From the NCBI RefSeq assembly GCF_017569205.1, contig NZ_CP071870.1:1-64000 (forward strand): DNA of 64,000 nt. Reading direction: 5' to 3'. Below the pieces are notes generated by a model. The model saw only the letters and a list, made by a program, of their open reading frames with translations, was not told where the DNA came from and did not search any database. Made by a program: the position numbers and the translations under genes. This stretch comes from Propioniciclava sp. MC1595 (GTDB lineage: Bacteria; Actinomycetota; Actinomycetes; Propionibacteriales; Propionibacteriaceae). Numbering within the stretch: the first letter of the stretch is position 1; the number at the start of each line of letters is the position of its first letter. Shown in pieces: positions 4,370-19,563 of the stretch.

Positions 4370-4886
4370 CCTGCCCGACGACGAGACCGAGGCCGTCCCG
4401 TTCGACCCGACGGGGCTCGACCTCGCGCGCCAGGTCGCGGCCGCGGCCGGCCGGTTCGCGCCCGCGCCACCCCCGCGCAAGAAGCTGCGGAAGAAGGCCG
4501 GACCGGGGCGCGGGGCGTCCGGCAAGGAGAGGGGCGAGCCGCTGAGCCTGGGTGAGGCGCTCGAGGGCGTCATCGAGGATCGAGGCTGGGGCACCCAGGT
4601 GAACGTCCACCTGCTGCTGGGCCGCTGGGCCGAGCTGGTGGGGGACGCCGTCGCGCAGCACTCCACGCCCGAGGCGTACCGCGATCGGGTCGTCGTCGTG
4701 CGGACGACGTCGACCAACTGGGCCGCCCAGCTGCGGTTGATGGCGCCGCAGATCGTCGCGAAGATGAACGCCACCCTGGGCCAGGGCACGGTCAAACGCG
4801 TGCAGATCCTGGGGCCGGAGGCGCCGAGCTGGCGCCACGGGCCGCGCTCGGTGAAGGGGCGCGGCCCGCGGGACACCTACGGGTAG
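4362..4886 (+). CDS. DciA-like helicase loader (DUF721)
   Basis: DUF721/DciA proteins promote loading of the replicative helicase in bacteria that lack DnaC or DnaI, and in actinobacteria the gene follows recF as here. The product is 174 residues. A low-complexity basic linker of about 65 residues (PPPRKKLRKKAGPGR) precedes the conserved domain (GWGTQVNVHLLLGRWAELVGD and TSTNWAAQLRLM). The ATG at 4362 overlaps the recF stop. An ATG six bases earlier, at 4356, is also in frame. The gene ends 9 bases from the convergent histidine kinase gene. Confidence 0.88.
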   Translation: MSDLPDDETEAVPFDPTGLDLARQVAAAAGRFAPAPPPRKKLRKKAGPGRGASGKERGEPLSLGEALEGVIEDRGWGTQVNVHLLLGRWAELVGDAVAQHSTPEAYRDRVVVVRTTSTNWAAQLRLMAPQIVAKMNATLGQGTVKRVQILGPEAPSWRHGPRSVKGRGPRDTYG

Positions 4887-4895
4887 TACGCCAGG

Positions 4896-6026
4896 TCAGC
4901 GCTGGCCGGTGGGGAGCGTCACGTGCGTGCGCCACTGGCCGTTCACCAACGACACCTCGGCCGTCCCGTTGAGCAGACGGAGGCGCTCCTCCATGCCGAT
5001 CAGCCCCAACCCTTTGGCGCCGATCCGCTTGGAACGGGTGCGGTTGACGAACAACCCGTGCAAGAGCCCGTCCTCCTCGTACACGGAGAACCAGCAGGTC
5101 GAGCCCGAGGGGGCGTGCTTGATGATGTTGTTGGTCGCCTCACGGACGATCTTGGCCAAGGTGGCGGAACGGGCTGGGGACACCGCTCCCAGGCGGATGT
5201 CGGTGTGGACGATCAGGCCATGCAGGCGGAGGCGCTCAGCTTGGTCCTCGATCATGGTCGTGAGGGCGTCGGGGCCGGGGAGGATCGTCGCGGGGATGAC
5301 GGACGGGTGGCCATCTCGGAGGGACGACAACAGCTGCCGCAGGTCCCTCGCTGCTGAGGCACAGTCCTCTGCGATGCGACCCAACTCGTCACGGGTCGCG
5401 TCCGGGACGCCGGGGTCCTCCGCGGCCATCCATGCGCGCATGGCGGCGTGGGACAGGCTCTGGGCGGTCGTGTCGTGCAGCTCCCGGGCAAGTTCGAGCC
5501 GGAGCTCCTCGATTCGAAGGCGTGACTCCTCCCGCTGGTGGGAGAGGCGAGCGGCAGCGAGCCGCCACAGCAGGGCGGCACCGACGGCCACCAACGTCGT
5601 GACGGCGAAGGGCGTGAAGGACCGAAGCGTCGGGTCGAAGTTGTCGAGGTGCAGGACGAGCCCCACGAAGGAGCCAGTGATCATGGCGGTGGTCAGCGCG
5701 ACCGAGAACCGGTGGTTGCGTGCCGCCGCTGAGGCTGCATTGATGAGGAGCGCAATGGAGGCCGTCGTCGTCTCCGCCGCGGGGATGAACAGTTCAACCC
5801 CGACAGCCACGAGGGCCAGACCGGCCGCCGGGACCGGCCAACGTCCGGACCCGGCAGCCGCCAAGTGGATGACCCCAGCTGTGACCCACGCCCATGGAGA
5901 CGTCTCGAAACTGTGCTGGATCGTGAAGACGAAAAGGAAGCTGAGTAGGGCAAGGCTGGGCTCGGCGAGGTAGCTGAGGGCCAGTCTTTCAGCGGGCTCC
6001 TCGCGAGGGGTGTGCGGCGGGAACAC
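4896..6026 (-). CDS. Sensor histidine kinase (HisKA_3 type)
   Basis: This 376-residue membrane kinase has about four to five hydrophobic segments in its first 160 residues. A HisKA_3 phosphoacceptor box follows (ELARELHDTTAQSLSH). The HATPase domain has an N box (REATNNIIKHAP) and a G box (GAKGLGLIGMEERL). Such kinases pair with NarL/LuxR-type regulators, and one lies just upstream at 6318-6959. The GTG start is 9 bases after the stop of a 47-codon ORF, which suggests translational coupling. As the last gene of the reverse RiPP block it probably regulates that block. The signal it senses is unknown. Confidence 0.9.
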   Translation of the reverse strand: MFPPHTPREEPAERLALSYLAEPSLALLSFLFVFTIQHSFETSPWAWVTAGVIHLAAAGSGRWPVPAAGLALVAVGVELFIPAAETTTASIALLINAASAAARNHRFSVALTTAMITGSFVGLVLHLDNFDPTLRSFTPFAVTTLVAVGAALLWRLAAARLSHQREESRLRIEELRLELARELHDTTAQSLSHAAMRAWMAAEDPGVPDATRDELGRIAEDCASAARDLRQLLSSLRDGHPSVIPATILPGPDALTTMIEDQAERLRLHGLIVHTDIRLGAVSPARSATLAKIVREATNNIIKHAPSGSTCWFSVYEEDGLLHGLFVNRTRSKRIGAKGLGLIGMEERLRLLNGTAEVSLVNGQWRTHVTLPTGQR

Positions 6027-6035
6027 CCCCGGAGT

Positions 6036-6179
6036 CTAGCGGGTCGGCTGGGACCTTACCGGGGGCAGCGGATCGGGATCACCCGACAGATCCAGCTGGT
6101 CCGATCCCTGAGCAGGAGCGTCAGGGATCGGACGAAGGAACAGGACGGTCGGGGACAGGGCGATCACGGCCTCGGTCAT
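6036..6179 (-). CDS. Small ORF (47 aa) between response regulator and kinase genes
   Basis: An ATG at 6179 is preceded at proper spacing by AAAGG. The ORF encodes 47 residues beginning MTEAVIALSPTVLF. It has a hydrophobic N-terminal half and a Pro/Asp-rich C-terminal half (GDPDPLPPV), with no cysteine. Its stop is 9 bases before the kinase GTG, which fits a real, coupled gene. I do not recognise a family. It could be a leader or coupling peptide, or a small regulator of the kinase. The missing Cys argues against a lanthipeptide precursor. Confidence 0.4.
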   Translation of the reverse strand: MTEAVIALSPTVLFLRPIPDAPAQGSDQLDLSGDPDPLPPVRSQPTR

Positions 6180-6317
6180 GGGGTGCCTTTCTCGGGTGGG
6201 GATTACGGCTCCACGGTAGGCACGACGGAGAGGCTGTGGTGGACCGGGTCTACCCGGGAGGATGCTTTGTCGACCGGGGTGGTTCACCCGGTCAACCTTC
6301 GGGTGGGTGACGCCTCG

Positions 6318-6959
6318 TCAGCGTGGGACGAGCCCCCAGGTGTGGGCCAGTGCGGCCAGCGCGGCGCGATTGGGTTGCTCGAGGCGGCTCAGCAGTCGGG
6401 ACACATAGGTCTTGACGGTGCTGGGCGACAGGAACAGGAGTTCGGCGATCTCGGCGTTGCTCAACCCGCGACCGACGTGGCCGAGGAGTTCCTTGTCGCT
6501 GTCCGTGAGGTGGTCCGGCGGAGGGGTGTGTCGCGAAGCGACCGTCCGGAGCAGGGAGGCGACGAGCTTGGGCGACACGAGCGCGTCACCGCTGTACGCG
6601 CTGCGCACGCCGTGGAGGACCAGGCCCGGGTTGTCGGACTTCAGGAGGAAGCCGGAGGCGCCAGCCTCCAGCGCCCTCACCAGGGACCGGTCATCGCCAA
6701 GAGCCGTGAAGCAGACAACCCGGCAGTTCACCGGTAGGGCCGTGATCCGCGCCGTGACTTCGATCCCGTCCAAGTGCGGCATGTGCAGGTCGACGATGGC
6801 CACGTCGGGCAGCAGTTCCTCGGCCAAGCGAACGGCTTCGGCGCCGTCGGAGGCGATCCCCACCAGTTCGAGGTCGGTGGCACGGGCGAGATACGTCTCG
6901 ATGGCGCGCTGGGCGAGGGGGTCATCCTCAGCGAGGAGGACGCGGATGTGGGGTGACAT
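6318..6959 (-). CDS. Response regulator, NarL/LuxR family
   Basis: This 213-residue regulator starts MSPHIRVLLAEDDPLAQ. The receiver domain has the acidic pair (EDD) near residue 10, the phosphoacceptor Asp in VAIVDLHMPHLDG, and conserved FTALGD and LLKS segments. A LuxR helix-turn-helix forms the C-terminus (LSNAEIAELLFLSPSTVKTYV). The open frame continues upstream through other genes, but the ATG at 6959 gives the canonical receiver start. It lies in the reverse RiPP block, upstream of its probable partner kinase, and probably controls the lanthipeptide genes. Confidence 0.93.
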   Translation of the reverse strand: MSPHIRVLLAEDDPLAQRAIETYLARATDLELVGIASDGAEAVRLAEELLPDVAIVDLHMPHLDGIEVTARITALPVNCRVVCFTALGDDRSLVRALEAGASGFLLKSDNPGLVLHGVRSAYSGDALVSPKLVASLLRTVASRHTPPPDHLTDSDKELLGHVGRGLSNAEIAELLFLSPSTVKTYVSRLLSRLEQPNRAALAALAHTWGLVPR

Positions 6960-7009
6960 GAACCCAATGTACGGGTCCGCGCCGGGAGTTGCGTCAGCCA
7001 GCCCGTTGC

Positions 7010-7912
7010 TCAGCCCCGTTCGTTGACCCCGTAGGTGATGCTCGAGGCCGCTTGCATCAGGGTCCGCGCGTAGACGCGGTCGGTCAGGGGCACGATGGCG
7101 CGCCCGATGAGGCCGAACGAACGTCGAGCGGCGACCCGCGTGATGTGGCATCCACCGGTGGCCCGCCGGATCTCGAACCGGTCGATCGTGAGGAGCTGAC
7201 CGGCGCGTGGCCCCTCGACCAGTTCGGCGCGCCACACGACGATGGAGGCACCGTCCTCCTGGCGGCTGCTGGGGTGCATGTGAACCGAGGTGTCCCCGCC
7301 TCGTTGGTGGTGGTGGATGGTGGTGCCGTCCCCGGAGCGCGTGGCACGGGTGGGATCGTATGCCCACCAGTCCAACGAGTCGGGTCGGATCAGGGCGTCG
7401 GTGACCGTCGCCCCCGGGACGGAGACGTACCAGGTGAGTCGCTGGACCCGAGCAGGTGCGGGTAGCTCCACGGGGGCTCCGGGGATTACCGTGGGGACGA
7501 AGGGGTCGACGGCCGTCACGTCCAGTTCGGCGGTGAGCATCGCCGGGCGAAGGCCGGCCGCTTCCACGAGGCGTGTCACGACGCCTGACGGGTCCTCGAG
7601 CAGACTCATCAACAGCGCAGCGGTCCCGGGGGCCGTCCGGAGGGCCTCCTCGGTCAGGGCCTGCGCCGGCGGTGTGAGGGGCAGTGTCGCCTTGGGGTGG
7701 GTCGCCGGCCCGGTAGCGGGACCGGTCAGGGCGACGACATGTGTCCTCGCGGAGTCGAGGCTGATCCCGTGCGTGCCGAGCAGCCGGGCTGCATCGCCGC
7801 CGGTCTGGAGGAGGCCGAGGTAGAGGTGGGCACGGTCGATCCGCGTCGCCCGGAGGCGCAGCGCCTCGCGGTGGGCGGCCGTCGTCCACAGGTTGGCGAG
7901 GTTGAGTGTCAT
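7010..7912 (-). CDS. Clp N-terminal domain protein with SRPBCC-like C-terminus
   Basis: The 300-residue product starts MTLNLANLWTTAAHREAL after a strong GGGAGGA site. Residues 1 to about 130 hold two Clp-N-type repeats (RIDRAHLYLGLLQ and TEEALRTAPGTAALLMSLL), normally the adaptor-binding part of ClpA/ClpC chaperones. No AAA+ ATPase follows. The last 150 or so residues contain a Trp/His-rich beta pattern (LTWYVSVPGATVTDAL and TTIHHHQRGGDTSVHMH) that resembles SRPBCC-fold proteins. The gene sits between the exporter and the response regulator. A chaperone, self-protection or immunity role is possible but unproven. Confidence 0.6.
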   Translation of the reverse strand: MTLNLANLWTTAAHREALRLRATRIDRAHLYLGLLQTGGDAARLLGTHGISLDSARTHVVALTGPATGPATHPKATLPLTPPAQALTEEALRTAPGTAALLMSLLEDPSGVVTRLVEAAGLRPAMLTAELDVTAVDPFVPTVIPGAPVELPAPARVQRLTWYVSVPGATVTDALIRPDSLDWWAYDPTRATRSGDGTTIHHHQRGGDTSVHMHPSSRQEDGASIVVWRAELVEGPRAGQLLTIDRFEIRRATGGCHITRVAARRSFGLIGRAIVPLTDRVYARTLMQAASSITYGVNERG

Positions 7913-7952
7913 GGGGGTCCTCCCTGTTGCTGGGTGATGGGGTGCTGAACTG

Positions 7953-9845
7953 TCAGGACGGGCTCGCGACCCCTTGTTCTTCGATGTCCAGGGACGTCGG
8001 CTGCGGGTCGCCGTAGGCGGAGGCCTGAAGGTGGTAGAGGTGGGCGTACTGTCCGTTCACGGCAAGGAGCTCCTCATGGGTGCCCTGCTCGATGATGCGG
8101 CCACCGTCGATCACGACCACACGATCAGCGATGCGCACCGTGGAGAACCGGTGGGCGATCAGGAAGGTGCTGGCGTCCCGCGTCTGCTCCCTGAACCGCT
8201 CGAAGATCTCGCGTTCGGACTCGGCATCGATGGCCGCGGTCGGTTCGTCGAGCACCACGATGGGCGCCTTCCGCACGAAGGCCCGGGCCAGGGCCATCCG
8301 CTGCCACTGGCCGCCGGAGAGCTGACGCCCGGCCACGAAGTGCCGTCCGAGCGTGGTGTCGTAGCCGTGCTCCATCTGTCGGATCTCGGCGTCGATCCCC
8401 GCAGCTGCGGCAGCCCCCGCAATGGACGTGGGGTGTGCCAGCTCATCGACACGCCCGAACCCGATGTTGTCCCGCACGCTCATCTCGTAGCGGATGAAGT
8501 CCTGGAAGATGACCCCGATGTTGGCTCGGTAGGCGTCGAGGTCGTACTCCTCGATCGGGCGCCCTTCGAGCAGTATCTGGCCCGACGTCGGCTCGTAGAG
8601 ACGCGTCAGGAGCTTGACCACGCTCGTCTTGCCGGAGCCGTTTCGCCCCACGAAGGCGACGCAGGTGCGCGCGGGTATGCGGAAGCTGACGTCGTGGAGG
8701 ACCTCCCGCGTGGTCCCGGGGTAGGTGAAGGAGACGTTGCGGAACTCGATGCCCTGCTTCAGTGTCCGGGGGAAGGGGAGCCCACCGGTGCCTTCACGGT
8801 TCCGGGGCATCCGGAAGACCGCGAACAGGTTGCCCAGGAACAGTGACAGCTCGAAGAGGCCGCCGACAGCCGCCAGGAGCGCCAGCATCGAGGCGTTGAT
8901 GGTGGTGAGGGCCTGCAGGTAGCCGGCCAGTTCCCCCAGGCGACCGTTGTCGAGGGCGAGGAACAGGGCCGCCGTGATCGCAGCGCCCGCTCCCACCACC
9001 GTGACCAGCCCCAGCCCGCCCAGGACCCATGCCTGCCGCGCGGCGATGCTGCGATCGACCGCCAGGAACTCGCGGACGAGTCCGCGGTAGCGGTTGATCA
9101 GGTGGGCGCCCAGCCCGAACAGGCGCACCTCCTTGAAGGAGTGGTCCCTGGTGGTGAGGTGCTGCAGGTAGCTGAGCAGACGCCGTCCCGGCGCGCGGTC
9201 GTACTCGATCTGGTAAGAGATGGCGCCGAACCACATGGTGCCGATGGCCGCCGGGATGGGGGACAGGATCACCAACAGGGCGATCCAGGGGTTCCACCCC
9301 ATGATGACCACGGCCACCGACACGAGCGTGAGTGCTTCACGAGCAACCTCGAGCACGCTGCTGAACAACTGCTGGATTCCACCCCCGCTGCTCTCCTGGG
9401 AAGCCCGTTGGAGCTTGTCGTAGGAGGCTGCGTTCTCGTAGTCCTCGAGTTCCAGGCGCGTCCCCACCTCCATGAGCCGTTCGCTGACCAGCGCGCCCAG
9501 TTTGAGCTGCATGACGTGGGACAGGTACTGGGTGGCGATACCGAGGACATGGGCCGCCAGCATCACGCCGGCGAGCAGGGCTGCGGGCAGCGCCACCGCC
9601 CGGACGGCCGAGGAGCGATCAGCCTGGGTGATCCCGTCCGCGACCGCCTGGACTGCCCAGGCCAAGGCCTGCACCTGGACGGCCGGAAGGGAGGCCGCGA
9701 CCACGGTGAGGAGGATGATCCCCAGGATCGTGAGGGGTCCGGTCGACCACAGCAGGCGGAAGGCGCTGATCCAGTCGTGCCAGACGCTGTGCCCGTCCCT
9801 CTGTTCGGACGCCGTGCGCAGGGCGGCACGCCCCAGACCCTTCAC
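7953..9845 (-). CDS. Lanthipeptide-type ABC exporter (TMD-NBD fusion)
   Basis: The 630-residue half-transporter has a six-helix membrane domain and then an ATPase domain. Walker A is VGRNGSGKTS near residue 396, the signature is LSGGQWQRM near 506, and Walker B is IVVLDEPTAAID. An H-loop follows (LIAHRFSTV). There is no N-terminal C39 peptidase, as in LanT exporters of class I lanthipeptides, so leader removal needs another protease. The GTG at 9845 overlaps the stop of the upstream dehydratase-like gene (GTGA), which sets the start. An upstream in-frame start at 9905 is less likely. Confidence 0.88.
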   Translation of the reverse strand: MKGLGRAALRTASEQRDGHSVWHDWISAFRLLWSTGPLTILGIILLTVVAASLPAVQVQALAWAVQAVADGITQADRSSAVRAVALPAALLAGVMLAAHVLGIATQYLSHVMQLKLGALVSERLMEVGTRLELEDYENAASYDKLQRASQESSGGGIQQLFSSVLEVAREALTLVSVAVVIMGWNPWIALLVILSPIPAAIGTMWFGAISYQIEYDRAPGRRLLSYLQHLTTRDHSFKEVRLFGLGAHLINRYRGLVREFLAVDRSIAARQAWVLGGLGLVTVVGAGAAITAALFLALDNGRLGELAGYLQALTTINASMLALLAAVGGLFELSLFLGNLFAVFRMPRNREGTGGLPFPRTLKQGIEFRNVSFTYPGTTREVLHDVSFRIPARTCVAFVGRNGSGKTSVVKLLTRLYEPTSGQILLEGRPIEEYDLDAYRANIGVIFQDFIRYEMSVRDNIGFGRVDELAHPTSIAGAAAAAGIDAEIRQMEHGYDTTLGRHFVAGRQLSGGQWQRMALARAFVRKAPIVVLDEPTAAIDAESEREIFERFREQTRDASTFLIAHRFSTVRIADRVVVIDGGRIIEQGTHEELLAVNGQYAHLYHLQASAYGDPQPTSLDIEEQGVASPS

Positions 9846-11575
9846 AACAACCCCCTGTCCCGGGCCGCCTGACGGCTGCGGAGCGTGCGCAATACCTCGT
9901 GGCACAGGAAGTAGATCTCCGCTTCGCGACCAAGGTCGATGGGCAGCAGGCGGTTCACGAGCATGTGGGCCAGACTGCCGATGAGGGTCTTGTGGTCCCC
10001 GCGCAGGCGCCCCTCCACCTCGGCCAGACGTACGGCGTCTCCGGCTCGGCGGTGCTCCGCCTCCCCGATGCGCAGGGCGACATGGAGGTCGTCCAGGGCC
10101 GGGTCAGGGTTTCCGCCCGTGACGGTTTCGGCCAGACTGACGAGCCTGCGGGCGTCACTTCTCAGCGCTGCTCGCATGCGGTCGGAGGGTTGCCCTGTGG
10201 GCAACATGTCGCTCAACTGGTCGGGTGTGCAGCCCCACTGGCTGAACAAGGCGAGCACGGCGGCCATGCCCACCTGTTCGTTGGTGAACGCGCCTCCGCA
10301 GTCCTCACGGAACGGCAGGAGGGCCACAGCAAGACGACTCGAGGCGTGGAAGGTCTCTTCCACGATCGGGAACACGTCGGAGCCCCCATAGCGGGCCTCC
10401 TCCGGAACATAGGGCAGCAAGCTGTAGTGGGATGCGCGTGCCCGCCCGACCAGATCCTCGGCCAGTTCGACGACCTGACCGACGAGCTGGGCAGCCGTTG
10501 CGCCGACAGCGCGCCTGATCCGCAGGCGGAGGTGGGGCCGCGGATCCATGTACCGGATGTGGAACCAAGCCTGGACCACGCCTTGGGCCACCCAGGCTTC
10601 GCACCGCTCTGCGATTTCTTCCATCAGGATGCGGTCCTGTTCCACGGTGTTGGCGTACAACACCAAGTAGCACCACTCCCCTCCGGCCCCGTGCCGCTGC
10701 CCGGTGTCCAGAGGCCCGATGCTCATGGGGGCGGGCATGGGGTGCGCATCGGTGGCCACCAGGGGAACGACCAGCTCGCTGGCGTGGCGTTCGCCCGCGT
10801 CGCCGCGCAACCACGTTCCGTCGGAGCAGGGCAGCATCTCGTTGATGGTCAGGCCCTGGACGTGGGCGGGATCGTCGAGGAGCGACACGAGTTCACGGAC
10901 GCATGCGGGGTGATCGAGATCCAGCAGCAGCCGGTTGTCGAAGTCAGCGGCATAGACCCAGCGGGGAACCCGGTGCCTGTGGCGCCAGCGGGCGATCGTC
11001 TCCGGCGAGAGTGACTGGTCGGGGAACAGTGCGGCGAGCAGACGGCGGGACACGGTCCACGTGGCGGGGCGCAGCACCACGTCGCGGTGGATGACGCGGG
11101 GCAGGGCGGTCGCCCCCTCGAGGCGTCCCCAGGTGAAGCCGGACGGCATGACGTACCCGTCGGCCGACACGTCGAGCAGGAACCGGGCCACGTTGGGGGC
11201 CATCTGTTCGTTCAACATGTGGCTTTGGATCACCACGACTTCGCGTTGGAGACGTCGGCACCACAGGAACATCCGGGTGGCGGAGATGCCCACCTCGAGC
11301 TCGTCGAGGGAGATGCGGCCCTCCTCGTCCGCAGTCGCTCCCGCGTTCAAGACGATCTCGTGGTCGGTCAGCAGCGGCCGGACGGCCACATTGGCGGCGT
11401 GCCCCGACGATGGCAGATAGCACAACTCGGCGATCACGGCCTCGGGGCGACTACGGTGCCACGCTCTGTACAAGTCCTCGAGGTTCGTCATCGACGTGGG
11501 CGGCAGAATGTCATGGAAGCGCCCGTAGGTGCGCCCCCCGAGGCTGAAGGTGCCCCGTCGTCGGGTGGCCACCAC
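9842..11575 (-). CDS. LanB-like dehydratase lacking the N-terminal half
   Basis: The 577-residue protein matches the second part of class I lanthipeptide dehydratases. Residues 1 to about 270 resemble the end of the glutamylation domain (GRTYGRFHDILPP, ELCYLPSSGHAANVAVRP and QSHMLNEQMAPNVARFL). Residues from about 299 form the SpaB_C/thiopeptide-type elimination domain (WCYLVLYANTVEQDRILM and WFHIRYMDPRPHLRLRI). Full LanB proteins have about 1000 residues, so roughly the first 400 are absent. An in-frame stop just upstream, which is the precursor gene's own stop, rules out a longer start here. The protein may work with a separate partner or be a remnant. Confidence 0.82.
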   Translation of the reverse strand: MVATRRRGTFSLGGRTYGRFHDILPPTSMTNLEDLYRAWHRSRPEAVIAELCYLPSSGHAANVAVRPLLTDHEIVLNAGATADEEGRISLDELEVGISATRMFLWCRRLQREVVVIQSHMLNEQMAPNVARFLLDVSADGYVMPSGFTWGRLEGATALPRVIHRDVVLRPATWTVSRRLLAALFPDQSLSPETIARWRHRHRVPRWVYAADFDNRLLLDLDHPACVRELVSLLDDPAHVQGLTINEMLPCSDGTWLRGDAGERHASELVVPLVATDAHPMPAPMSIGPLDTGQRHGAGGEWCYLVLYANTVEQDRILMEEIAERCEAWVAQGVVQAWFHIRYMDPRPHLRLRIRRAVGATAAQLVGQVVELAEDLVGRARASHYSLLPYVPEEARYGGSDVFPIVEETFHASSRLAVALLPFREDCGGAFTNEQVGMAAVLALFSQWGCTPDQLSDMLPTGQPSDRMRAALRSDARRLVSLAETVTGGNPDPALDDLHVALRIGEAEHRRAGDAVRLAEVEGRLRGDHKTLIGSLAHMLVNRLLPIDLGREAEIYFLCHEVLRTLRSRQAARDRGLL

Positions 11576-11584
11576 GGTCTGGGC

Positions 11585-11764
11585 TCAGTTGGCCGGTTCG
11601 TCCATGCCGCACCCGATGGTGCACATGGGCGTGCAGGTGTTGGAACAGAAGCAGGTCCACTTGGTGCACTTGATGGTCCGGGAACGCGCGGGCGTCCAGG
11701 AGGCGGGCTCCACGTGGCCGGCCGCCGGCGTGCTGATCCGGACATCGAGCTGGAAATCACTCAT
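11585..11764 (-). CDS. FxLD-type lanthipeptide precursor peptide
   Basis: The 59-residue peptide starts MSDFQLDVRIST, which matches the F-x-L-D leader motif of FxLD-family class I lanthipeptides. The C-terminal half is a core with six Cys at 33, 38, 40, 44, 48 and 52. Seven Ser/Thr (30, 34, 37, 41, 43, 45, 49) could be dehydrated, so up to six (methyl)lanthionine rings are possible. The tail is GMDEPAN. AAAGGA lies about 10 bases before the ATG. The dehydratase-like gene starts 9 bases after the stop. The core sequence is not one I recognise from a known product. Confidence 0.85.
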   Translation of the reverse strand: MSDFQLDVRISTPAAGHVEPASWTPARSRTIKCTKWTCFCSNTCTPMCTIGCGMDEPAN

Positions 11765-11808
11765 GACGAAACACATCCTTTCTTGGGGGATTGTGGGAAC
11801 GCCGAAAA

Positions 11809-11825
11809 GACGAATTGGATTCGTC
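11809..11825. promoter_or_regulatory. Palindrome upstream of the lanthipeptide precursor
   Basis: A perfect inverted repeat, GACGAAT-TGG-ATTCGTC, lies 45 bases upstream of the precursor ATG, within the gap between the divergent genes at 11764 and 12054. Its position fits an operator or activator site for the cluster's response regulator. I could not place convincing -35 and -10 boxes. Confidence 0.4.
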
Positions 11826-12053
11826 GATCGGGATTCCCGACGGGAGGGGGTTCCCGCGGTTTCATCACACTCGGGACTCTTGGTCCGGCACAAGGGCTCG
11901 GTCGCCTGGGTCGACTTTCGGTGGAGGCTGGCGACCCGAAGGTTGACGGTCGTGTCATCGATCGGGTGCACCGTGGGCCGAGCGTCGCGACGGGGTGAGG
12001 TGCAGGCTTCGTGGCGTTGTACCGTGGCGAGACCGAACACCTGGAGGATGCCC

Positions 12054-12305
12054 ATGCACACCACCAAGCGATCAGCCCTTGCGGTGGCCCAGCTCGTGGG
12101 AGGCGCGGCCATGGTCGTCGCCTTCTTCGCCTATCTCGTGCTACGTCCGCCCGCCTCGACGTGGGGGGGTTCTGGTGCACCCTGGCTCGGTTGGGGCGTC
12201 TATGCCGTGGCCTTCCTCGTCCTGACCGGCGGCGTCAGCCTCGCCGCAGCCGGGTGGAACGCCCTCTCATCCGCCCGGCGCCGCACGCGTCCCCAGGGCG
12301 ACTGA
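12054..12305 (+). CDS. Small membrane protein, two predicted TM helices
   Basis: The 83-residue protein starts MHTTKRSALAVAQLVGG after CTGGAGG at 12041-12047. An in-frame ATG at 12048 is too close to that site. Two hydrophobic spans are visible (VGGAAMVVAFFAYLVL and GWGVYAVAFLVLTGGVSL), with a basic C-terminal tail (SARRRTRPQGD). It is transcribed divergently from the precursor gene across a 289-base gap. It belongs to no family I recognise. A role in cluster immunity is conceivable from position only. Confidence 0.55.
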   Translation: MHTTKRSALAVAQLVGGAAMVVAFFAYLVLRPPASTWGGSGAPWLGWGVYAVAFLVLTGGVSLAAAGWNALSSARRRTRPQGD

Positions 12306-12437
12306 CTTCTATCTTCGGGCGCGCTGCCATGCCCCATCGGCCGTGGGATTGCCCATTCGAGTCCTGGCCGGAATTGTCAGAACTGAAAGATTCCTACCGG
12401 ACAGTCGGATCGAATCGGTCCTGAGCAGGAGAACCCG

Positions 12438-12677
12438 ATGTCGAGATTGCCTATGAGAACCTTGCGTCATGGGGCGCTCCGCTGGATCCTGCGCCCGTGC
12501 CCTGACCGCGTGGCACCAAGCCTCGAGCTGAGCAACAACGAGCCCCTGGCCGACGAGCACAACGCCCTGCTGCCCCCGGACTCGTTCCACCTGCCGGTGG
12601 GGCGCCCGGTCACCCACACCATCTATCGGGACGCCGCCCACCCCAGCCGGCTCGTCCTGCCGTACACGATGGGGTGA
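12438..12677 (+). CDS. Hypothetical protein (79 aa)
   Basis: The ORF has a good ribosome site (AGGAGA at 12427-12432) and encodes 79 residues beginning MSRLPMRTLRHGAL. The second half (LADEHNALLPPDSFHLPVG) reads like ordinary protein, and the end (LVLPYTMG) is abrupt. I do not recognise it. It could be a short real gene or the remnant of a longer one. The 130 bases before it contain no gene. Confidence 0.35.
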   Translation: MSRLPMRTLRHGALRWILRPCPDRVAPSLELSNNEPLADEHNALLPPDSFHLPVGRPVTHTIYRDAAHPSRLVLPYTMG

Positions 12678-12728
12678 GCCATCGGGGTGAACCGAGGCTT
12701 CTGGCAGCACGGACGGGCCCCCGCCTCT

Positions 12729-12806
12729 GTTGCGAAATGGGGCCGATGATGAGGGGCCGATGGTCGGCGCGCCCATTCCCTCCGAACAGCGGCCCCATTC
12801 GACAAC
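12729..12806. repeat. Imperfect long inverted repeat
   Basis: The 17-base arms at 12729-12745 and 12790-12806 pair at 15 of 17 positions, with a shared perfect ATGGGGCCG/CGGCCCCAT part. They lie in the 162-base gap between two small genes. The structure could be a terminator for the 79-codon ORF or the remnant of a small inverted-repeat element. Confidence 0.5.
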
Positions 12807-12839
12807 GCGGCTGCTGCGGCACCGTGCGACGATGGCTCC

Positions 12840-13238
12840 ATGGAGCCGATCACCCCGTCGCGCCCGGGGCATGTGTTCGCGGAAGTCTCCGGGTGGGAGG
12901 TGGAGTGCTGCGGCTCGCCCTTCAGGGTGGGTGACCTCGTGGACGCCGACCTGTACGACTACTTGGCCCCCGCAGCGCAGGAACTGTTCACCCCACTCGA
13001 GCAGTACTGGTCGTGGCACGACGACAGTGCGGCCCCTCGGGTGCGGGCCCGGGTCGTGAACCTGTGGGAGGTCTGGTGGGAGTTGCGTCAGGTCGGTGAA
13101 CGAGCGTTCGAGACGCTGACGGGGCGCGGCCGGGCGATCGGCGTCCACGAGGTTGAGATCGACTTCGACCGTCAGCCCAGCGGGTGGGTGGTCGAGCTGG
13201 CACCCGTGGTCGTGCTCCCTCACGCCCCCGGCAGTTGA
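12840..13238 (+). CDS. DUF6578-like hypothetical protein
   Basis: The 132-residue soluble protein begins MEPITPSRPGHVFAEV and contains GWEVECCGSPFRVGDLV. That segment resembles an actinobacterial family of unknown function (probably DUF6578). A Trp/Glu-rich middle follows (LWEVWWELRQVGE). No strong ribosome site is visible before the ATG at 12840. The 3' end overlaps the convergent DUF299 gene by 19 bases. The biochemical role is unknown. Confidence 0.6.
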   Translation: MEPITPSRPGHVFAEVSGWEVECCGSPFRVGDLVDADLYDYLAPAAQELFTPLEQYWSWHDDSAAPRVRARVVNLWEVWWELRQVGERAFETLTGRGRAIGVHEVEIDFDRQPSGWVVELAPVVVLPHAPGS

Positions 13239-14274: not shown

Positions 14275-17200
14275 ATGAGCGTGATGCAGGGCATCACCGA
14301 GGACGTCCCGTTCGACCACGGCGCCGCTGACGCACTGGTGACCGCGTGCACGAACGCCGCCTCGGCCATCGAGGGTCAGACCGGGTCGCGAGCCTCCTGG
14401 GTGGCGCACGGGCTCGAGGACTTCAAGGGCTACTACGCCCAACTGTTCGAGCAGAACGGCCGGACGCAGGCCAGCGACGCGTCCCACCTGGCCACCCGAT
14501 TGCGGCAGGTGGCCACGGCGGTCGGTGACCTCAAGGCGTCCGCCACGGCCGAGCAGAATCGCCGCCAGACGGCGCGCGACTGGAAGGCGCGGCAGGAGGC
14601 GCGCGGCTTCTGGGACAAGGTGAGTGACTGGTTCACCGGTGGCGAGCCGCCGCCCGTCGGGGGCCCCGACCCGACCAAGAACCTGTCGGTGCCGCCGTAC
14701 TCACCCCCGCCGCGGGAACCGCTGTCGGGCAACGGGTCGACCGGCACCTCCTCCGCGCGGCCGGCGAACCTCCGCTCGTTCGCCAGCAACTCCCGGGGGG
14801 CCAACGACGCGCTCGCGCCGCACCCCGGTCGGCTGCGCACCGCCTACGACGCCTTCACGGGGTCCTGCACGTGGGGGTCCCTCGACGCCGCCGGTGTGTG
14901 GGGCGGGTTCGCCGCCTACCTCACGGCCAACGGGCAGGACGTGTCGTGGGCCGACACGGTGGCCGGTGCCTTCGAGGCCGCGGGCAGCTCGGGTGTGGTG
15001 ACGACCTCCAACGCGGCCATCACGGCGTCCCTGCAGACGGCGGGGGTCAACGCGAGCCGTGACGACCTGGTGATCACCGCGCCCGAGGCCATCGGCGCCC
15101 CGCCGACCACCGGCTACGCCAACGACCCGGTCAACACGGCGACCGGCAACTTCCTCGAGCCCGAGACCGATCTCACATTCGGCGGTGGGGCCGCAAGCCT
15201 CCGCCTGACCCGCATGTACAACTCGGTGCACCCCGCGGTGGGCGCGTTCGGCCCCGGGTGGTCGTCCTGGACCGAGGCGGGCCTGCTGTTCGACGACGGC
15301 GGCGCCCGCTGGGTGCGCGACGACGGCCGGCACGTGCTGTTCCCCCGACAGGGCGATGGCTGGGGCCGCGCCACCACCGAGGCTTTCTGGCTGACGGCCC
15401 GCCCCGACGGGCACGCGATCACCGACAACACCGGCGCCCGCTGGGAGTTCGACGCCGCCGGACGCCTCGCCGCGACCTCCGTCGGCCCCGGCAGCCGCGT
15501 GGTGCTCTCCTGGGACGGGACGCGCCTGGTGCGCCTCACCCACCAGCGCGGGCGGCGCATCGACCTCACGTGGTCCGACGACCGGGTCGTCGCCGCCGAG
15601 GCGTCCGATGGTCGACGCGTCACCTACGACTACGACGACGCCGGCCGCCTGGTGTTGGCCACCTCGCCCCAGGGCACGCGCCGCTACGACTGGAACGACG
15701 CCGGCCTCGTTCACCGGGTGACGGACGCCGACGGCGTCATCGAGCTGGAGAACACCTACGACGACCGCTCCCGCGTGGTGGAGCAGCGTTCGCCGCACGG
15801 GCGGGTGACGCGCTTCGCCTACCTGCCCGGCCACGTCACGGTGGTCTCCGACCCCGATGGGTCGCGCGCGAACACGTGGATCCACGACAACCGCGGCCGC
15901 CTCGTCGGTGTCGTGGACGCCCACGACCAGCGGCAGTCGATGGCCCGCGACCAGTACGGCCAGGTGGTGATGACGACCGAGCGCGACGGGTCGATCACCG
16001 TCCGCGAGTACGACGAACGCTCCCGGCTGACGGCCGAGGTGACCCCGTCCGGCGCCCGGGTCGAGACGGCGTGGGACGAGCACGACCGTGTCGTGAGCGT
16101 CACGGTCGAGGGCGGGGATGCCCCCGCCACCACCCGCTTCGAGTACGACGGGCTGGAGCGAAACCCCCACACCATCATCGACGCCGAGGGTGGCCGGACC
16201 GGGTTCACCTGGGCCGACGGCCTCCTCACAGAGACGGTCGACCCGACCGGGGCTCGGGTCACGATGGCCCACGACGAGCACGGCGACCTGGTCGCGATGG
16301 CCGACGGCCTCGGCAACACGGCCCGGCTCGAGCGTGACGCCGCGGGTCGGATCGTCGCCAGCACCACCCCCCTGGGGCACCGCACGACGTTCACCTGGGC
16401 GGACGAACGACTCGCCGCGCGCACCGACCCCGATGGGGGCACGTGGCGGTTCGAACACACGCCGGCCGGACGCATCGCCGCGGTCATCGACCCGTTCGGT
16501 GCGCGCACCGAGTACGGGCACGACGAGGCCGGGGAGACGGCATCCGTCACCGACCCGTTGGGGCGCACGACCTCGCGCGTGTTCGACGCGCTGGGCAACC
16601 TGGCGCGCACCGAGCTGCCCGACGGCAGCACCTGGGTCTTCACCCACGACGCGCTGTCGCGACTCGTCGCCACCATCGACCCCGAGGGCGGCGAGTGGCG
16701 CTGGGAGTACGACCTGAACGGCACTCCCGTCCGCGCCATCGACCCCACCGACCGCACCACCGTCGTCACCCGCAGCACCGACCGCACGGTGACCCGGACT
16801 GGATCGGTTCGCGAGGACGGCCCCGCCTCCACGCTCGTCACCGACCGCATCGGTCGGATCGTGTCCGTGACCCAGCCGGGGTACGGCAGCCAGCTCACCC
16901 GGTACGACCGGTGCGGGCGCCCGGTCGAGTACGTCGACCCCGACGGGAACGTCACCAGCCTGGAGCGGGACGCGGCCGGCCGCGTGCTGGGCCTGCGGCG
17001 TCCGGGCGGCGCCACGACCCGGTACACCTACGACGCGCGCGGCAAGCTCGCCTCGGTGACGGACGCCGCGGGCGCCACCACCACGTTCACGATCGACGCC
17101 GACGGACGCCTCGAGTCCGAGCTCGGCCCGACCGGTGAGGTGCTCCGATACGAGTACGACGCCAACGGACGGGTCACTGCGTCGGTCCGGCCCGGTCTGG

Positions 17201-19563
17201 GACGCACCACGTGGGCGTACGACCTCGTCGGCCGGGTCGTCGCCATCAGGAGCCGGCAGTGGGGGTTGCGCCGGTTCGCCTACGACGCGGCCGGCCAACT
17301 CGTCGAGGCGCAGGACGCCCTCGGCGGGGTCACGCGCTACCGCTACGACCTCAACGGGCGGGCCGTCGAGGTCACCGACCCGCTGGGCCACACCACCGTC
17401 CGTTCGTTCAACGCCCGCGACCAGAAGGTCGAGGAGGTCGACCCGCTCGGGCGCCGCAAGCACGTCGGCTACGACGCGGCCGGGCGCCTGGCCTGGCACG
17501 AGTACGGCACCGGCGAACGCGTCGCCTGGGCGTACGACGACGACGGCGCCCTCAGCCGAGTCAGTCTCGACGGCGAGACGGTGGCGCAGCACCAGCGCGA
17601 CTTCGCGACGAACACGCTCACCATCCTCGACCACACCGACCCCGCCGGCGAGGTCACGCATCGCCTGCGCTGGGACCGCCGCGGCCACCTCGTCGAACGG
17701 TCCCGTGGCGATGACACGGTGCACTGGGCGTACGACGTCGACGGGCGGTGCGCCGCCGTCGCGGCCCCCAACGGCGCCACGACCCGCTACGAGTACGACC
17801 CGGTCGGCCGACGGGTCGCCGTGGACGCCGCGGGTGCGGGCCGGGTGCAGCTCACCCTGGACGCGGCCGGGCGCCTCGTCGCCGCGACCGCGCCCGGCGC
17901 CGAGCAGGCGTGGGTGCACGAGGACGGGGACGTCGTCTCCCACACCCTGACCCGTGGTGGCGAGACCAGTCGCACCGAGGTGGAGCGGGGCGCCGACGGC
18001 CGGATCGCCACGATCGTGCGCGACGGCGTCCGCACCGAGTACGGGCACGACGCCGCGGGCCAACTGGTGTCCGCGACCACCGGTGCCGCGACCCAGCGGT
18101 GGGAGTACGACGCCGGCGGACGCCTCGTGCGCGAGGCGGACGGCCCGACGACCAGGACGTACGCCCACGACGACGCCGGCCAACTGGTGCGACGTGACGC
18201 CGACGGGGTGGTCACCACCTACAGCTACGACGCCGCAGGGCGCCGCACCGGCGAGGTCGGGCCCCACGGCGAGACGACGTTCACCTGGAGCCCGATGGGG
18301 TGGCTGTCGGCCATCGAGGGCCCGCACGGCCACACGAGCGTGCACGTGGACGCCCTCGGCGAACTCGCCCGCGTCAACGACGCCGACGTGTTCTGGAACA
18401 TCGCCGAACGCAGCGTCGCCCCCGTTCAGGTCGGCGGCGACGCCGTGACTGCGGCCCCCGGGTTCCTCAGCGATGGCGCTGGCTGGCTGGCGACCGGGTG
18501 GCGTACCGAGCGCGGTGACGCCGTCGATCCGTGGGCGCTGGCCACCGGGTCGACGCACGGGCCGATCAGCCTCGGGGCGTCCGGGCAGGTCGTCTTCGCG
18601 GGGTTGGAGTGGCTCGGCGAGCGGGTCAACGACCCTGCCTCGCGCGGATTCCTCAGCCCCGACCCGCTCGACCCGACCCTGGGCGCGCCGTGGGCCGGCA
18701 ACCCCTACAGCTATGCGGGCAACGACCCGTTGCACGCGCTCGACCCGACCGGCCTGCGCCCGGTCACCGACAAGGAACTCGCCGATTACACCCATGCCGC
18801 CCACACCGGGAACTTCTGGGAGCGCAACGGCGACACCATCGTCGGCGGCCTGGTCACGGCGGCGGGCGTGGCGATCATGTTCGCGCCGATCCCGGGCGCC
18901 CAGATCATCGGCGCGGGTATCGCCAGTGCCGGCATCAACGTGGTCACCCAGACCCTGCAGAAGCCGGGCATGCCGATCGACTACGTCGAGGTCGGCATCA
19001 ACGGTGTCCTCGGAGCGATCCCCCTCGGCCGGGCGGCGACCGTCTTCAGCGCCTTCGGGCGGGGAGCCGGCGCGGGTGCCGCCACGGGTCTCGTCACGGG
19101 CATCTACACCGGAGTCCGCGACGGCTTGTCGGGCTCCGACCTGGTCTCCAGTGTCGCGCAGAGCGTGGGGATGGGTGCGCTGTTCGGGGGCATCCTCAAC
19201 GGGATCGGCCACGTCGCCTCCACGCCGAAGCCGTCGACCTCGACCGACCTGGTGCCCGTCAACCCGGCCCCGAGCCAGGCGCCACCGGCCCCGGCGCCGG
19301 CGGCACCCGCCCCGTCCACGGAGCTGGTGCTCTACCGGCCGCCGTCGACCGAGCTGGTCCTCTACCAGCCGCCGACCCCGGCGCCGGTCGCCCCGACCGC
19401 GCCGCCGGGGCCGCTGGCCCTGCCACCGGGAGCACCACCGCCGTTGGCGTTGCCGCCGGGCCCGAGCGCGCCGTTGGCACTGCCGCCGGGGGCACCCCCG
19501 TTGCCGGCGCTGCCGGCACCGCCCCCGATGCTCGCGCTGCCGCCGGGCCCCTCGGCTGGGTAG
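14275..19563 (+). CDS. WXG-like/RHS-repeat polymorphic toxin-like protein
   Basis: This 1762-residue protein starts after AGGAGG at 14263-14268. Residues 1-95 look like a helical WXG100/LXG-type export domain. DUF6531 begins near residue 283 (NDPVNTATGNFLEPETDL). Dozens of YD/RHS repeats run to about residue 1450. The RHS core ends with GFLSPDPLDPTLG and DPTGL near residue 1494. The C-terminal 268 residues contain glycine/alanine-rich hydrophobic stretches (GGLVTAAGVAIMFAPIPGA) and a Pro-rich tail with four LALPPG units. I see no known nuclease or deaminase motif there. A secreted, cell-associated or toxin role is inferred from architecture. Confidence 0.85.
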   Translation: MSVMQGITEDVPFDHGAADALVTACTNAASAIEGQTGSRASWVAHGLEDFKGYYAQLFEQNGRTQASDASHLATRLRQVATAVGDLKASATAEQNRRQTARDWKARQEARGFWDKVSDWFTGGEPPPVGGPDPTKNLSVPPYSPPPREPLSGNGSTGTSSARPANLRSFASNSRGANDALAPHPGRLRTAYDAFTGSCTWGSLDAAGVWGGFAAYLTANGQDVSWADTVAGAFEAAGSSGVVTTSNAAITASLQTAGVNASRDDLVITAPEAIGAPPTTGYANDPVNTATGNFLEPETDLTFGGGAASLRLTRMYNSVHPAVGAFGPGWSSWTEAGLLFDDGGARWVRDDGRHVLFPRQGDGWGRATTEAFWLTARPDGHAITDNTGARWEFDAAGRLAATSVGPGSRVVLSWDGTRLVRLTHQRGRRIDLTWSDDRVVAAEASDGRRVTYDYDDAGRLVLATSPQGTRRYDWNDAGLVHRVTDADGVIELENTYDDRSRVVEQRSPHGRVTRFAYLPGHVTVVSDPDGSRANTWIHDNRGRLVGVVDAHDQRQSMARDQYGQVVMTTERDGSITVREYDERSRLTAEVTPSGARVETAWDEHDRVVSVTVEGGDAPATTRFEYDGLERNPHTIIDAEGGRTGFTWADGLLTETVDPTGARVTMAHDEHGDLVAMADGLGNTARLERDAAGRIVASTTPLGHRTTFTWADERLAARTDPDGGTWRFEHTPAGRIAAVIDPFGARTEYGHDEAGETASVTDPLGRTTSRVFDALGNLARTELPDGSTWVFTHDALSRLVATIDPEGGEWRWEYDLNGTPVRAIDPTDRTTVVTRSTDRTVTRTGSVREDGPASTLVTDRIGRIVSVTQPGYGSQLTRYDRCGRPVEYVDPDGNVTSLERDAAGRVLGLRRPGGATTRYTYDARGKLASVTDAAGATTTFTIDADGRLESELGPTGEVLRYEYDANGRVTASVRPGLGRTTWAYDLVGRVVAIRSRQWGLRRFAYDAAGQLVEAQDALGGVTRYRYDLNGRAVEVTDPLGHTTVRSFNARDQKVEEVDPLGRRKHVGYDAAGRLAWHEYGTGERVAWAYDDDGALSRVSLDGETVAQHQRDFATNTLTILDHTDPAGEVTHRLRWDRRGHLVERSRGDDTVHWAYDVDGRCAAVAAPNGATTRYEYDPVGRRVAVDAAGAGRVQLTLDAAGRLVAATAPGAEQAWVHEDGDVVSHTLTRGGETSRTEVERGADGRIATIVRDGVRTEYGHDAAGQLVSATTGAATQRWEYDAGGRLVREADGPTTRTYAHDDAGQLVRRDADGVVTTYSYDAAGRRTGEVGPHGETTFTWSPMGWLSAIEGPHGHTSVHVDALGELARVNDADVFWNIAERSVAPVQVGGDAVTAAPGFLSDGAGWLATGWRTERGDAVDPWALATGSTHGPISLGASGQVVFAGLEWLGERVNDPASRGFLSPDPLDPTLGAPWAGNPYSYAGNDPLHALDPTGLRPVTDKELADYTHAAHTGNFWERNGDTIVGGLVTAAGVAIMFAPIPGAQIIGAGIASAGINVVTQTLQKPGMPIDYVEVGINGVLGAIPLGRAATVFSAFGRGAGAGAATGLVTGIYTGVRDGLSGSDLVSSVAQSVGMGALFGGILNGIGHVASTPKPSTSTDLVPVNPAPSQAPPAPAPAAPAPSTELVLYRPPSTELVLYQPPTPAPVAPTAPPGPLALPPGAPPPLALPPGPSAPLALPPGAPPLPALPAPPPMLALPPGPSAG

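Follow-up and report, generated by a model that had tools for sequence, protein, structure and literature searches.

Lanthipeptide clusters with an incomplete dehydratase (LanB) can be set beside several described systems, cited here from excerpts of the sources. In NisB, the substitution Y80F alone leaves no dehydration and substitutions of R14, R83 and R87 reduce it (excerpt of PMC4341554); in MadB, residues of the leader-binding element (RRE) between positions 176 and 222 contact the leader (excerpt of PMC12241602). The LanB of thiopeptide pathways is split (TpdB/TpdC), and an artificially split NisB is functional in trans (excerpt of PMC8546558). According to a review, most analysed Streptococcus pyogenes isolates with salA1 have deletions of maturation and secretion genes, the downstream immunity and sensing genes being mostly intact (excerpt of PMC4162386). 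Here we describe a cluster from Propioniciclava sp. MC1595, located in the first 64,000 nucleotides of contig NZ_CP071870.1 (the window), in which the C-terminal part of a LanB lies between an FDLD-family class I lanthipeptide precursor and an ABC exporter. The cluster is very probably a deletion relic without a dehydration pathway, and its gene content suggests that the product is most likely no longer made. It resembles the incomplete salivaricin A loci in its maturation-gene deletions and in the precursor and two-component genes that are still present. In S. pyogenes, however, the enzyme is of the SalM type, secretion is also hit and the deletions are widespread among strains, whereas one genome is known here (excerpt of PMC4162386). 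The locus would be an actinobacterial parallel to the streptococcal sal locus, a further partly deleted lantibiotic locus with its precursor kept.

The LanB remnant and its missing partners

The window LanB retains 217 residues of the glutamylation domain: its residues 13–229 match only positions 433–649 of the 649 in the Pfam profile Lant_dehydr_N (PF04738). The elimination domain is nearly complete, with residues 301–559 matching positions 1–252 of the 255 in Lant_dehydr_C (PF14028). In alignments with solved structures, homology starts near residue 477 of MadB and residue 459 of NisB, and ∼430–475 N-terminal residues are missing. This confirms a first-pass annotation, made by a model from the letters and a list of open reading frames, which had described a dehydratase-like gene lacking roughly the first 400 residues of the glutamylation domain. 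Since everything before approximately NisB residue 459 is absent, the equivalents of R14, Y80, R83 and R87 are gone, and the RRE that binds the FDLD box is lost with the N-terminal part. The complete glutamylation domain required for a functional class I pathway is therefore not present. The predicted structure of the remnant (mean pLDDT 83.3, pTM 0.54) has MadB as its best Foldseek match (E 3.3e-30, TM-score 0.46 by query), which confirms the LanB fold and decides nothing on function. Annotation of this short LanB as a functional dehydratase is unwarranted.

The precursor (11585–11764, minus strand; MSDFQLDVRISTPAAGHVEPASWTPARSRTIKCTKWTCFCSNTCTPMCTIGCGMDEPAN) carries the leader motif FQLD and matches NCBIfam NF038155 (FDLD family class I lanthipeptide) with 27 bits (E 5.6e-6; curated cut-off 20). 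The clear FxLD leader and the cysteine spacing C-x4-C-x-C-x3-C-x3-C-x3-C reported at first pass are both borne out. The frame is open farther upstream (11585–12112), and the start was set at ATG 11764 on Shine-Dalgarno and leader fit. The peptide is 56–58% identical to two Crossiella precursors and 38–49% identical to the other four compared. All six belong to LanC–LanB–ABC loci, six of the seven used for the interval measurement below, and the Ser/Thr- and Cys-rich core resembles theirs (38–58% identity); the Crossiella sp. SN42 precursor (58% identical) stands ahead of LanC–LanB–ABC. A search with the FDLD precursor model over 396 genomes of the phylum gave three matches including the MC1595 genome, too few for a survey. 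The precursor tail MDEPAN was weighed as possible LanB-derived sequence over the junction, given that the TGA ending the precursor shares its frame with the remnant; such an origin is neither claimed nor excluded. Among the related precursors, that of L058 has a tail of almost the same length, and those of the others are shorter.

The MC1595 genome is a single contig of 3,430,973 bases (completeness 100, contamination 0.22). No LanC was found in it with Pfam PF05147 at E ≤ 10 or with the Crossiella LanC protein as query at E ≤ 1, and no second LanB N-terminal (glutamylation) part was found, including by a search with the N-terminal part of the Crossiella LanB. In the same searches the two Crossiella queries match five of five control genomes of the order, picked because a LanB homologue was already known in them. 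The absence of a cyclase noted for the cluster thus extends to the whole genome as searched, and the LanC of a functional class I pathway is missing. The first-pass annotation had also found no leader protease in the cluster, and none of the seven window proteins scanned matched a protease family. Its suggestion that the missing activities might be supplied in trans, to be checked by a search for a LanB N-terminal half and LanC, is rejected for this chromosome, since neither was found while the queries match all the controls; four own-genome searches, the last two with positive controls, rule out such a supply.

The same result bears on a natural split of LanB as in thiopeptide pathways, in which LanC and the glutamylation half would be supplied in trans from genes at other places. 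The window LanB is like TpdB/TpdC and split NisB in that its elimination domain shares no chain with a complete glutamylation domain, and the activity of split NisB is a precedent in its favour. Unlike them, it keeps a third of the glutamylation domain, and no separate glutamylation protein was found in its genome in searches with positive controls, which already contradicts a split for this chromosome. In addition, the break lies inside the glutamylation domain, at Pfam position 433 of 649, and not at the known split point, the boundary between the domains of ∼700 and ∼300 residues (excerpt of PMC8546558). We regard a natural split as highly improbable.

Gene order in related clusters and the size of the missing block

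The comparison of gene order proposed at first pass for related strains was made with related loci, those with complete clusters being in other genera. Within the genus, the LanB was found in 1 of 13 genomes (E ≤ 1e-5), that of MC1595 itself, and not in the other 12, two of which are 72–73% complete. Of 292 other genomes sampled from the order, 14 contain a homologue (E ≤ 1e-20), and all 16 places lie in frames of at least 927 amino acids. An alignment-based scan of contigs from 84,980 species yielded 434 confirmed loci, and the best 80 were taken as a sample of the nearest relatives. Four of the 80 loci end at a contig edge on the 5′ side. Among the remaining 76, an open frame (stop to stop) of at least 350 residues precedes the homologue of window residue 13 in all but one (75/76), the exception (L123) having 205 residues and a LanC piece. 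No second example of a short LanB was found in the order sample or among the 76 uncut loci, and a literature search found no paper whose title concerns such a cluster.

LanC, LanB and ABC genes follow in a row in 13 of the 80 loci by the filter used, and in Crossiella and some of the Streptomyces loci the FDLD precursor stands directly ahead of LanC. The Crossiella and Streptomyces FDLD clusters (L052–L056, L058 and L060) share with the window cluster the precursor type, the core motif, a LanB C-terminal half that is 38–41% identical and an ABC exporter directly behind LanB. They differ in that LanC and a full LanB separate the precursor from the exporter, and no Clp_N gene was found in their stretches. 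FDLD clusters on S. goshikiensis and S. globosus plasmids likewise have precursor, LanB and ABC in the same order, but they also contain a sulfotransferase, LanC and a full LanB, with a response regulator on the opposite strand. The order that emerges from these loci is precursor–LanC–full LanB–ABC.

In seven loci, selected by eye for precursors most like that of the window, the codon corresponding to window LanB residue 13 lies 2871–2977 bp from the precursor stop, versus 45 bp in the window. Hence the two layouts are separated by one block of ∼2.9 kb (2.83–2.93 kb), which holds LanC and the first half of LanB. Loss of one such block would yield the window layout, apparently in a single event. 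A relic had been one of the options left at first pass, and it is now favoured, since in related clusters LanC and an entire LanB separate the precursor from the exporter, a difference that a single block deletion accounts for. That annotation had named as its own refutation a complete LanB in close relatives and a simple deletion in this strain; this is in substance what was found, except that the complete clusters are in other genera.

We propose that an ancestral FDLD class I cluster of the order precursor–LanC–LanB–ABC exporter, probably acquired horizontally, lost one continuous block of ∼2.9 kb that starts immediately after the precursor stop and ends midway through lanB, and with it LanC, the RRE and most of the glutamylation domain. 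Because these parts are gone, the Ser/Thr residues of the core would not be glutamylated, no dehydroamino acids would form and the rings could not close. The precursor, the exporter and the C-terminal part of LanB would persist as open frames, the last translated at best weakly, by re-initiation after the precursor stop. A lanthipeptide cluster can therefore look intact to genome mining, with a precursor, a 'lantibiotic dehydratase' and an exporter, yet be without needed parts.

The window layout would also result if the strain had an intact cluster from which the assembly dropped 2.9 kb. The evidence here is the assembly itself, and one copy of a 14-nt direct repeat (D13, 93%; 11564–11577) spans the remnant start. 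The other copy lies 800 bp inside the remnant, however, the repeat is short enough for chance, and the genome is a single contig with the completeness and contamination given above. We consider an assembly error very unlikely.

Start sites, rates of change and the role of the remnant

The ribosome sites of the cluster had all been called intact at first pass, which is wrong for LanB. For the GTG of the remnant, anti-Shine-Dalgarno pairing is close to nil (−1.9 kcal/mol), and the ATG codon for residue 29, inside the frame, scores +0.7 kcal/mol, compared with −3.4 to −10.9 kcal/mol for the other 11 starts scored. A start site of its own would be expected of a native short gene; re-initiation after the precursor stop is possible.

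The LanB remnant has also diverged about 1.5 times faster than the exporter would predict. On a fixed topology, that of a 15-sequence concatenated tree in which two nodes have support of 58 and 61 only, the window branch has a length of 1.51 for the LanB half and 0.80 for ABC, a ratio of 1.88; the tree as a whole has 1.30. After normalisation to the other branches the ratio is 1.55 (5–95% 1.30–1.93; >1 in 60/60 bootstraps); the medians of the five other long branches bootstrapped are 0.74–1.29, the remaining nine branches being outside the bootstrap. By domain, the normalised rate is 1.25 for the glutamylation remnant (>1 in 52/60) and 1.83 for the elimination domain (60/60). These rates fit relaxed selection on the remnant; they are soft data and do not date the deletion.

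The rates bear directly on the possibility that the pathway is reduced rather than lost, the LanB remnant acting as an export adaptor that binds both the FDLD leader and the ABC exporter through its elimination domain. An unmodified six-Cys peptide would then be exported and perhaps closed by disulfides outside, and a lanthipeptide cluster would have turned into a plain peptide secretion system. The frames are open without internal stops, the precursor retains its leader and six Cys, and the exporter retains 133 of the 146 columns invariant in the others. In addition, the separated NisB elimination domain co-purified with leader peptide, and a ∼30 kDa C-terminal part of NisB was pulled down with NisT and NisC (excerpt of PMC8546558). 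The adaptor reading is weakened, however, because the relative rate is higher in the elimination domain (median 1.83) than in the glutamylation remnant (1.25), no ribosome site is evident at the remnant and no second example occurs in the samples searched. Work cited in the same excerpt found export of unmodified NisA without NisBC extremely inefficient and supports a single leader-binding site outside the elimination domain (PMC8546558). The reduced pathway, also an option at first pass, is in our view unlikely. If the remnant did bind leader and exporter, it would test whether an elimination domain alone directs export.

A number of points weigh against the favoured reading of a deletion relic. 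The intact clusters compared are from other genera, so that the deletion event is a probable reading of the comparison, and an assembly error would be an unlikely alternative. All remaining frames are open without internal stops, and the GC content at third codon positions of the remnant (0.85) is like that of its neighbours, which argues against great age of the deletion. The first-pass argument against long decay is fair in this respect, but the remnant is without an evident ribosome site and gives some hint of relaxed conservation. The catalytic His of the elimination domain is kept (H537, at the place of NisB H961, invariant in both alignments), as are 85 of the 101 LanB columns that are invariant elsewhere and, in the elimination domain, 40 of 45. 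The normalised ratio of L057 reaches a median of 1.29, and the short branches L052, L054 and L060 have raw LanB/ABC ratios of 1.81–2.06, so that the raw ratio of the window branch alone is not unusual; the faster LanB rate could also predate the deletion. Finally, 11 of the 80 loci have no LanC in the examined stretch, comprising the 4 contig-end cases and 7 with full LanB frames. A LanB without a nearby LanC is thus not rare (7 of the 76 loci uncut on the 5′ side), and the lack of LanC next to a LanB does not by itself prove decay, because these seven have full LanB frames.

Exporter, neighbouring genes and the insert

Features of the cluster and its insert, in window coordinates
Feature	Coordinates	Strand	Basis
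FDLD-family lanthipeptide precursor, 59 aa, six Cys in core	11585–11764	minus	NF038155 match; 58% identity to Crossiella sp. SN42 precursor
Apparent deletion junction, 9 nt between precursor stop and remnant GTG	11576–11584	minus	interval comparison with 7 loci
LanB remnant, 577 aa, last third of glutamylation domain and elimination domain	9842–11575	minus	PF04738 433–649, PF14028 1–252; MadB/MibB/NisB alignments
ABC exporter (permease and ATPase)	7953–9905	minus	PF00005; likelier start GTG 9845 by Shine-Dalgarno score
Clp_N-domain protein, 300 aa, role uncertain	7010–7912	minus	PF02861
NarL-type response regulator, pathway link putative	6318–6959	minus	PF00072, PF00196
HisKA_3-type sensor histidine kinase, pathway link putative	4896–6026	minus	PF07730
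Insert holding the cluster	4883–13219		blastn of both flanks; gene content at relatives' sites

In the FDLD cluster on the S. goshikiensis plasmid, the ABC gene that immediately follows LanB is 43% identical to the window exporter. An exporter syntenic with those of the relatives, as a functional class I pathway requires, is therefore present. The place of the Clp_N gene in the pathway is doubtful because none was found in the 80 related stretches (the best 80 of 434). The genome contains a Clp_N paralogue (G000:C1:922202–923125; L147:9191–10237; 42% identity), and the window copy may stem from the host instead of belonging with the lanthipeptide genes. The paralogue lies near fructose-bisphosphate aldolase and adenylosuccinate synthetase genes, and in addition to its Clp_N domain it matches Polyketide_cyc2 below the cut-off. 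An open frame of 47 amino acids (6036–6179, minus strand; MTEAVIALSPTVLFLRPIPD...) lies between the genes for the response regulator and the histidine kinase; it ends 9 nt before the kinase GTG and has a moderate Shine-Dalgarno score (−6.2 kcal/mol), no Cys and no Pfam match. It may encode a small regulatory peptide or have arisen by chance.

The cluster lies within an insert, since only 191 bp separate its two flanks (85% and 82% identical) in the same-genus genome G004, versus 8,337 bp in the window (blastn), and the cluster genes were not found at the relatives' sites compared. At eight sites (8 of 12 relatives), tblastn at E ≤ 1e-4 found no histidine kinase, Clp_N, LanB or precursor, although a short precursor could escape such a search; single weak matches away from the site were found in the relatives' stretches, one to the response regulator (L048, 36%) and one to the ABC gene (L049, 29%). 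One flank has a DciA-family gene behind a RecF-like gene and the other a kinase/pyrophosphorylase gene, with dnaA and dnaN before the cluster and gyrB behind. The DciA family was formerly named DUF721. A direct repeat (D5, 18 nt, 89%; 4849–4866 and 13114–13131) lies near the insert ends and may be chance.

A 79-residue frame at 12438–12677 contains a 51-residue stretch with a 94% identical counterpart in genome G009 (L045), located between gyrB and the DciA-family gene; the cluster genes were not found there. From these comparisons the recF–gyrB interval seems variable in this genus. An RHS-repeat protein of 1762 amino acids with a DUF6531 domain is encoded at 14275–19563 on the plus strand, and a relative of it (55% identity over residues 4–1583) occupies the same place in G004.

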